Assembly (NCBI RefSeq): GCF_000317515.1
Contig: NC_019738.1
Span: 6,660,001 to 6,724,000 of the forward strand
Direction of reading: 5' to 3'
Origin: Allocoleopsis franciscana PCC 7113
Lineage (GTDB): Bacteria > Cyanobacteriota > Cyanobacteriia > Cyanobacteriales > Coleofasciculaceae
Length of the DNA: 64,000 bases
This document shows, one piece after another, positions 26,780 to 29,314 of the stretch; position 1 is the stretch's first letter; every line of letters starts with the position of its first letter. The notes beneath the pieces are model-generated. The model made no database searches. It had not been told where the DNA came from and saw only the letters and a list, made by a program, of their open reading frames with translations. Made by a program: the position numbers and the translations under genes.

Positions 26780-27838
26780 ATGACAATAGCAGTCGGACGC
26801 GCGGCAAGTACGAGAGGATGGTTTGACGTCCTCGACGACTGGCTAAAGCGCGATCGCTTCGTTTTCGTCGGCTGGTCCGGCCTGCTGCTGTTCCCCTGCG
26901 CTTACCTAGCGCTAGGCGGCTGGCTGACCGGCACCACCTTTGTCACCTCGTGGTACACCCACGGATTGGCCTCTTCTTACCTAGAAGGCTGTAACTTCCT
27001 GACCGCCGCCGTATCAACGCCTGCCGACAGCATGGGACACTCCCTGCTGTTGTTGTGGGGACCCGAAGCCCAAGGCAACTTCATCCGTTGGTGCCAAATC
27101 GGCGGGTTGTGGCCCTTTGTCGCCCTGCACGGAGCCTTCGGTTTAATCGGGTTCATGCTCCGGCAATTTGAAATCTCACGGTTGGTGGGGATTCGTCCTT
27201 ACAACGCCATTGCGTTCTCTGCACCGATTGCCGTATTCGTCAGCGTGTTTTTGATGTACCCCTTGGGACAGTCAAGCTGGTTCTTTGCTCCCAGCTTTGG
27301 AGTGGCGGGAATTTTCCGCTTCATCCTGTTCGTACAAGGGTTCCACAACTTCACCCTCAACCCCTTCCACATGATGGGAGTGGCGGGTGTATTAGGTGGA
27401 GCGCTGCTGTGCGCCATCCACGGGGCAACCGTAGAGAACACCCTGTTTGAAGACGGGGACAAAGCCAACACCTTCCGGGCGTTCAACCCCACCCAAGCGG
27501 AAGAGACCTATTCCATGGTCACCGCTAACCGCTTCTGGTCGCAAATCTTCGGAATTGCCTTCTCCAACAAGCGCTGGTTGCACTTCTTCATGCTGTTCGT
27601 GCCCGTGACGGGATTGTGGATGGCCTCGATTGGGATTATTGGCTTAGCGCTGAACCTTCGGGCTTATGACTTCGTCTCTCAAGAGTTACGAGCCGCCGAA
27701 GACCCAGAGTTTGAAACGTTCTACACCAAAAACATTCTGTTGAACGAAGGTCTACGGGCTTGGATGGCTCCTCAAGACCAACCCCACGAGCACTTTGAGT
27801 TCCCTGAGGAAGTTCTTCCTCGCGGTAATGCTCTGTAA
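26780..27838 (+). CDS. psbD: Photosystem II reaction centre protein D2
   Basis: 352 residues, the canonical length, with the D2 landmarks: [72 protein letters not shown] (cut forms), [17 protein letters not shown] and the C-terminal [14 protein letters not shown]. With D1 it forms the thylakoid heterodimer that binds P680, the pheophytins and QA. Codon use is highly biased, as expected for a very highly expressed gene. It is cotranscribed with psbC in all cyanobacteria I know. Here it ends cleanly 90 bases before psbC instead of overlapping it, which is unusual (see the relic feature). Confidence 0.97.
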
Positions 27839-27850
27839 AACAATATTAAG

Positions 27851-27885
27851 GATGAGTGCTGAATTCTCACTCTTCAGCATTCATC
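27851..27885 (+). repeat. Hairpin in psbD-psbC intercistronic spacer
   Basis: GATGAGTGCTGAA (27851-27863) pairs with TTCAGCATTCATC (27873-27885), a 13-bp stem with one G-T wobble and a 9-base loop. There is no T-run after it, so it is probably not a terminator; it may be an RNA processing or stabilising element, or a GTGCTGA-type repeat. Confidence 0.55.
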
Positions 27886-27915
27886 ACTCCTGGTTTATCA
27901 TCCATCATTTTGAAA

Positions 27916-27945
27916 GAGGTACTACCCAGTGGTAACACTCTCTAG
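27916..27945 (+). pseudogene. Relic of a second psbD 3' end overlapping psbC
   Basis: In the frame that starts GAG at 27916 the sequence reads EVLPSGNTL and then TAG. The genuine psbD ends EVLPRGNAL and stop, so 7 of 9 residues and the stop match. The relic overlaps the psbC GTG by 17 bases, the same psbD/psbC overlap that is normal in cyanobacteria. The AGAGG of psbC's ribosome binding site lies inside it. Confidence 0.75.
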
Positions 27946-29314
27946 TAATTCAATCGTTGCGGGAAATCGTGACCAAGAATCATCAGGTTTTGCCTGGTGG
28001 GCTGGTAATGCCCGTCTGATCAACCTCTCCGGTAAATTGTTGGGTGCTCACGTTGCCCACTCTGGACTCATTGTCTTCTGGGCTGGAGCTATGACCTTGT
28101 TTGAGGTCGCTCACTTTGTACCCGAAAAGCCCATGTACGAACAGGGCTTAATCTTACTGCCTCACCTAGCCACTCTGGGCTGGGGTGTTGGCCCTGGTGG
28201 TGAAGTTATCGATACCTTCCCCTACTTTGTGGTCGGTGTGCTGCACCTCATCTCCTCTGCCGTTTTAGGCTTAGGCGGTATCTATCACGCTGTTCGTGGC
28301 CCAGAAACCTTAGAAGAGTACTCCTCCTTCTTTGGTTATGACTGGAAAGACAAGAACAAGATGACCACCATCTTGGGCTTCCACCTGATCATGTTGGGAT
28401 TGGGTGCCCTGCTGTTGGTCGCCAAGGCGATGTTCTTTGGTGGTGTGTATGACACTTGGGCACCCGGTGGTGGTGACGTGCGTGTCATTACTAACCCGAC
28501 TCTGAACCCAGCCATTATCTTCGGTTACCTGCTGAAGGCTCCCTTCGGTGGCGAAGGCTGGATTATCAGCGTCAACAACATGGAAGACATCATCGGCGGT
28601 CATATTTGGGTCGGCTTGGTCTGTATCGCTGGTGGCATTTGGCACATCCTGACTAAGCCGTTTGCTTGGTCTCGTCGCGCCTCCATCTGGTCTGGAGAAG
28701 CTTACCTCTCCTACAGCTTGGGCGCTTTGTCCATGATGGGTTTCATTGCCGCTTGCTTTGTCTGGTTTAACAATACCGCTTACCCCAGCGAATTCTACGG
28801 CCCCACTGGTCCTGAGGCTTCTCAAGCTCAAGCCTTAACTTTCTTGATTCGTGACCAACGCTTAGGTGCTAACGTCGGTTCTGCTCAAGGCCCCACGGGT
28901 CTGGGTAAATATCTGATGCGCTCTCCCACTGGCGAAATCATCTTCGGTGGTGAAACAATGCGCTTCTGGGATTTCCAAGGCCCCTGGTTAGAGCCTTTGC
29001 GTGGACCCAACGGTCTTGACCTGAACAAGATCAACAATGATATTCAGCCTTGGCAAGCTCGCCGTGCGGCTGAGTACATGACACATGCTCCTCTGGGTTC
29101 TTTGAACTCCGTGGGTGGTGTGGCTACGGAGATCAACTCCTTTAACTATGTGTCTCCGCGTTCTTGGTTGGCTTGTTTCCACTTTGTCATGGGCTTCTTC
29201 TTCCTTGTCGGTCACCTGTGGCACGCGGGTCGCGCCCGTGCGGCAGTGGCTGGATTTGAGAAAGGAATCGACCGTGCTACTGAGCCGGTGATGTCCATGC
29301 CCGACCTTGACTAG
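27929..29314 (+). CDS. psbC: Photosystem II CP43 chlorophyll-binding protein
   Basis: 461 residues from a GTG at 27929 ([10 protein letters not shown]...), the standard psbC start, with AGAGG 8 bases upstream. This inner antenna protein has six transmembrane helices with chlorophyll-ligating histidines ([45 protein letters not shown]), and its large lumenal loop contains the Mn-cluster region around [11 protein letters not shown] and GGETMRFWD (the GGETMRFWD arginine lies near the Mn4CaO5 cluster). It is the last gene of the psbDC operon, followed 40 bases later by a strong terminator. It is normal in length and sequence. Confidence 0.97.

Follow-up and report, generated by a model that had tools for sequence, protein, structure and literature searches.

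psbC starts inside a relic psbD tail in a split psbD–psbC pair

In the window (the whole 64,000-nt stretch of DNA that was analysed), psbD and psbC have lost their overlap, and psbC starts inside a detached fragment of a psbD tail. The favoured reading, given a probability of roughly 0.7, is that this split pair descends from an ancestral overlapping pair: the tail of the psbC-linked copy (psbD1) has become the psbC leader, the working psbD has received the end of the second copy (psbD2) by conversion, and a stem-loop spacer lies between the two. The features are as follows.

26780 to 27838, + strand: psbD (D2), psbC-linked copy, with a psbD2-type 3′ end (GAAGTT...CGC...CTG TAA); from the open reading frame, identity with psbD2 and the end signature.
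27839 to 27915, + strand: intercistronic spacer, unique in the genome by own-genome search and also present in G001 and relatives.
27851 to 27885, + strand: stem-loop with arms at 27851–27863 and 27873–27885 and no T-run after it; from folding and covariation.
27916 to 27945, + strand: relic psbD1 tail (EVLPSGNTL-stop); 27/30 against the consensus of 65 overlapped psbD ends.
27916 to 27919, + strand: GAGG within the relic, presumed ribosome-binding site of psbC; from the sequence and the GAGG in relatives' tails.
27929 to 29314, + strand: psbC (CP43), with its GTG start inside the relic; from the open reading frame and alignment with relatives.

The psbD product has 352 amino acids, and 90 nt lie between the psbD stop and the psbC GTG, in agreement with the first-pass annotation, which had reported an overlap lost through a psbD ending 90 bases early. 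The usual overlap that it cited does exist, but measures 17 nt and not "a few bases". In a pair of the overlapping type the psbD frame extends beyond the psbC start; here it stops at 27838, ahead of the start at 27929. The start and ribosome-binding site of psbC do lie inside psbD-tail sequence, but that tail is detached from the working psbD. Compared with the overlapping pairs of cyanobacteria and chloroplasts, the genes, their order, the GTG start and the register are the same, and the relic is the overlap itself. The differences are the working psbD, which ends 90 nt upstream, and the structured spacer in between.

The relic (GAGGTACTACCCAGTGGTAACACTCTCTAG) translates as E V L P S G N T L stop, and the psbC GTG falls at position 14 of its 30 nt, in the register of the relatives' 17-nt overlap. 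It agrees with the consensus tail of the overlapped genes at 27 of 30 bases, and the string occurred once in the window when up to 3 mismatches were allowed (0.00 expected from shuffles). The psbD ends of two overlapped genomes of the window's own family (G005 and G010) read GAGGTACTACCCCGTGGTAACGCTCTCTAG. Relics in the closest split relatives match at 24–30 of 30 positions and those in most split lineages at 20–30, while the remaining lineages have eroded further, at the lowest to chance level. GAGG is present in all 65 overlapped tails and in most split relics.

This resemblance might instead reflect functional convergence, as GAGG and GTG with 9 nt between them are required of any psbC leader, and what follows is psbC coding sequence. 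Indeed, psbC coding accounts for 17 of the 30 relic bases and the ribosome-binding site for 4, which leaves the 9-nt linker as the sole independent evidence, and several lineages (in f5, f9 and f31) lack nearly all of the extra similarity. Nevertheless, the linker matches the overlapped consensus at 8 of 9 positions (permutation p = 0.004 in the window), and in the closest split lineages the match likewise exceeds chance (permutation p 0.0004–0.006). Moreover, the split pair of Symplocastrum torsivum (L042) carries a relic identical over all 30 nt, and Microcoleus-type genomes carry one matching at 28 of 30. The relics of these relatives are decisive for the relic reading, and convergence is judged very improbable. 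Judged from its sequence, 27916–27945 is a fossil of the tail of the psbC-linked psbD (psbD1), now the leader of psbC. It would have been retained because the GAGG ribosome-binding site, the GTG start and the first codons of psbC lie inside it. The first-pass annotation had recognized EVLPSGNTL-stop as a near-D2 C-terminus in the overlapping register and proposed that the old tail stays at the psbC start; both points hold, the fragment found there being of psbD1 type. Relatives with the same spacing but a spacer unlike any psbD end, which it had named as grounds for abandoning the idea, were not what was observed, given similarities of up to 30/30.

psbC loci were gathered from relatives and named genomes, and 120 of them were scored for a tree: 65 overlapped and 55 split, a ratio that is no frequency because the sampling was non-random. 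In five of the 55 split loci, psbC lacks a psbD end within 500 nt. The split state was seen in parts of the window's family and also in families f2, f5, f9, f10, f12, f13, f15, f20, f21, f22, f26, f31 and f32, and several families include split and overlapped loci alike. The eight genomes taken from other orders of the class all have the overlap, which is therefore most simply ancestral. The first-pass annotation viewed the split as something local, but the arrangement recurs across the window's order.

A single origin of all split loci was rejected on the psbC tree (p-AU 7e-9, 16 changes). The tree thus supports recurrence of the split, as far as psbC sequences can tell, although a count of origins is beyond such a poorly resolved, single-gene tree. 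Motifs just upstream of the ribosome site that are common to several families suggest fewer origins. On the same tree the window's family falls into separate groups (L009, L010, L013 and L011 versus L025, L026, L032, L027, L031, L033, L037 and L150) despite several homologous-looking spacers within it, which may reflect transfer or uneven rates. Three loci of f5 (L160, L161 and L226) have psbC without a psbD within 500 nt and without a recognizable relic.

The second psbD of the window's genome lies at G000:C1:6421645-6422700. Its protein is 100% and its DNA 98.7% identical to the psbC-linked copy (14 differences in 1059 nt). Identity extends from 2 bp before the ATG to the TAA; the leaders and downstream sequences are dissimilar, and psbD2 is followed by a terminator-like hairpin. 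Near-identical coding sequences within unlike flanks are a feature that the two genes share with concertedly evolving psbD pairs. By identities alone, the proteins are 100% identical within this genome versus 91–95% to those of other genomes of the family.

The presence of two near-identical psbD genes raises the matter of an assembly artefact, in which their collapse would have produced the split. Many draft contigs do break at psbD, and a series of them (L044–L118) start a short way upstream of psbC, probably because the psbD copies are near-identical. One assembly (L041, L122; G006) joins psbC and its psbD to the promoter and the ABC-transporter gene found upstream of psbD2 in the window's genome; this may be a real crossover or a metagenome-assembly chimera across the 1-kb repeat. 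Nevertheless, the window's assembly consists of 9 contigs and places the two psbD copies separately, each in surroundings of its own, and single-contig genomes of other families also have split pairs. With the two copies resolved and the same spacer present in a genome of the same genus (G001), the arrangement in the window is safe. An artefact is considered negligible as an explanation.

The ends of the psbD genes carry codon signatures. Overlapped psbD1 genes invariably use GAG for the last glutamate and CGT for the arginine (65/65 each); these choices matter, as GAG makes the GAGG ribosome site and CGT makes the psbC GTG. psbD2 genes use GAA (21/21) and mostly CGC (17/21). The split psbD1 genes likewise have GAA in 45 of 50 and CGC in 33 of 50, GAG being kept in 5 of 50. 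GAA and CGC would destroy the psbC signals if psbC were still read from that end. The end of the working psbD is therefore of psbD2 type, and the fragment represents a psbD1 tail.

psbD1 was also compared with psbD2 within genomes. In 10 overlapped genomes, the last 45 nt differ at 62 of 450 positions versus 223 of 10131 elsewhere (p 1e-27), while in 11 split genomes 9 of 495 positions differ in that tail and 236 of 11151 outside it (p 0.87). As read from these substitution patterns, conversion between the copies spares the last 45 nt in overlapped genomes and extends to the stop in split ones. In our own reading, the overlapped tail escapes homogenization because the psbC start lies in it, and conversion reaches the stop in split genomes because the tail has been freed from encoding that start. 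The psbC start signal is thus indicated as a limit on the homogenization of psbD copies by conversion. PMC6053082 describes concerted evolution of cyanobacterial psbD over the long term; there, as here, two syntenic copies, psbD1 and psbD2, are homogenized by recurrent conversion. It differs in that psbC goes unmentioned in its text, and the excerpt describes neither a conversion-resistant tail nor its release in split genomes nor a relic. No description of split psbD–psbC pairs was found in the limited library of literature searched.

As to how the split arose, ectopic recombination with psbD2 would have duplicated or replaced the psbD tail. About 30 nt of the original psbD1 3′ end survive as the psbC leader, with the Shine–Dalgarno GAGG, the GTG and the first codons. 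The working psbD closes with a full 3′ end and stop codon of its own, and conversion up to that codon keeps it nearly identical to psbD2. Replacement or duplication of psbD, for instance by way of the second psbD, had been suggested in the first-pass annotation. The psbD2-type end and a second copy with an identical coding end support this in part; as the cause of the split, psbD2 recombination is what we infer, because conversion is continuous and the psbD2-type end may post-date the split. The conversion-tract boundary that had been sought was located, and simply coincides with the stop codon.

Copy-through of psbD2 plus its flank predicts similarity between the spacer and the psbD2 3′ flank. 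None was found in the window's genome or in relatives, so that the comparison with the sequence after the psbD2 stop proposed at the outset came out negative, the spacer was rejected as a copy of that flank, and the mode of the split is unproven. This mismatch also favours a different order of events, in which the psbD1 tail was first duplicated locally in tandem (or brought in by an insertion), splitting the pair, and psbD2 conversion later overwrote the unconstrained upstream end. Continuous conversion would then give a psbD2-type end either way, and psbD2 would have polished the working psbD without causing the split. Nevertheless, none of the split loci combined a relic with an upstream end wholly of psbD1 type, and the spacer has no trace of a longer tandem duplication. 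This sequence of events is a serious contender at somewhat below even odds. Both ectopic psbD2 recombination and tail duplication followed by conversion fit the data.

The window's spacer has a single match in its own genome, with all other matches at E > 0.5. As a dispersed repeat of that genome it was rejected, since similarity and pattern searches both found a single copy. Spacers are homologous within the window's family, and short motifs before the ribosome site are common to some other families; most spacers are unrelated. No known RNA family was found in the window's spacer, no promoter or intrinsic terminator was called in it, and its hairpin was absent from the terminator-like sites.

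Shortly 3′ of the psbD stop, the spacer forms a predicted 13-bp stem-loop (folding z −3.46). Pairing is kept in 99.1% of stem cells across nine members of the window's family, versus 27–51% in a slid control, and 3 pairs are altered on both sides in a compensatory manner. Among split loci with short spacers, 45 of 47 are matched in folding by at most 10 of 200 shuffles, with a median z of −4.15. Control regions (58 codirectional intergenic regions near psbDC loci) gave a median z of −0.9, with 12 of 58 at z ≤ −3. In the same run only 10 psbDC spacers qualified, of which 2 are unstructured, and they differed from the 58 controls with p 0.002. The excess of structure looks real, though the sequences behind it are related and the spacers short.

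Near-perfect palindromes are common among the spacers, several being made of AATCTAAAATC-type motifs, and strong inverted repeats also occur in those 12 of 58 control regions. The spacer could accordingly be an inserted small palindromic repeat element, and the hairpin that element itself, not a selected regulatory structure. This is doubtful, as the window's spacer is single-copy in its genome, stem pairing survives two-sided changes in the window's family, and insertion alone leaves the psbD tail unduplicated. In one genome (L224; G120) a second spacer hairpin is a perfect 19-bp stem with GCGATCGC on both arms, unlike close relatives.

In the puf operon of purple bacteria, an intercistronic stem-loop of co-transcribed photosynthesis genes sets differing message stability. 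The window likewise has a stable stem-loop between neighbouring genes, predicted from sequence and without a T-run. It is not homologous to the puf hairpin, and its function is putative. A single message is proposed to start from the psbD promoter; ribosomes would end D2 at 27838, and translation of psbC would begin separately, at the ribosome site within the relic. The stem-loop might protect the psbD message or separate psbD from psbC, so that expression would no longer be strictly joint.

We infer that the split frees the end of D2 from the psbC start signal, and it may change the relative expression of psbD and psbC. No difference in predicted ribosome-site accessibility was seen between overlapped and split pairs (p 0.90), so there is no direct sign of altered coupling. 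For tobacco, a 17-nt psbD–psbC overlap with suggested partial translational coupling is given in PMC8133689. The split pair shows how a doubly constrained overlap has been undone with a readable fossil left behind. Overlapped and split relatives together offer a natural experiment on whether overlap matters for the D2:CP43 balance and photosystem II repair. A bolder proposal is that this highly conserved photosynthesis overlap was broken repeatedly in one order through psbD2 recombination, with a fossil leader and a non-homologous stem-loop each time, as convergent uncoupling of CP43 and D2; in that full form it is unlikely.

Two further observations were made. Within psbC, the Rfam model IsrR (antisense RNA to isiA) scored 167.8 bits at 28343–28529 on the minus strand, antisense to psbC, probably because isiA and psbC are homologous; an antisense RNA to psbC is possible there. 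In addition, a D1-like gene (G000:C7:5453-6352; L007) lies on a separate 93-kb contig, and the plasmid genes that it matches most closely are psbA copies from Nostoc, Microcystis and Calothrix.
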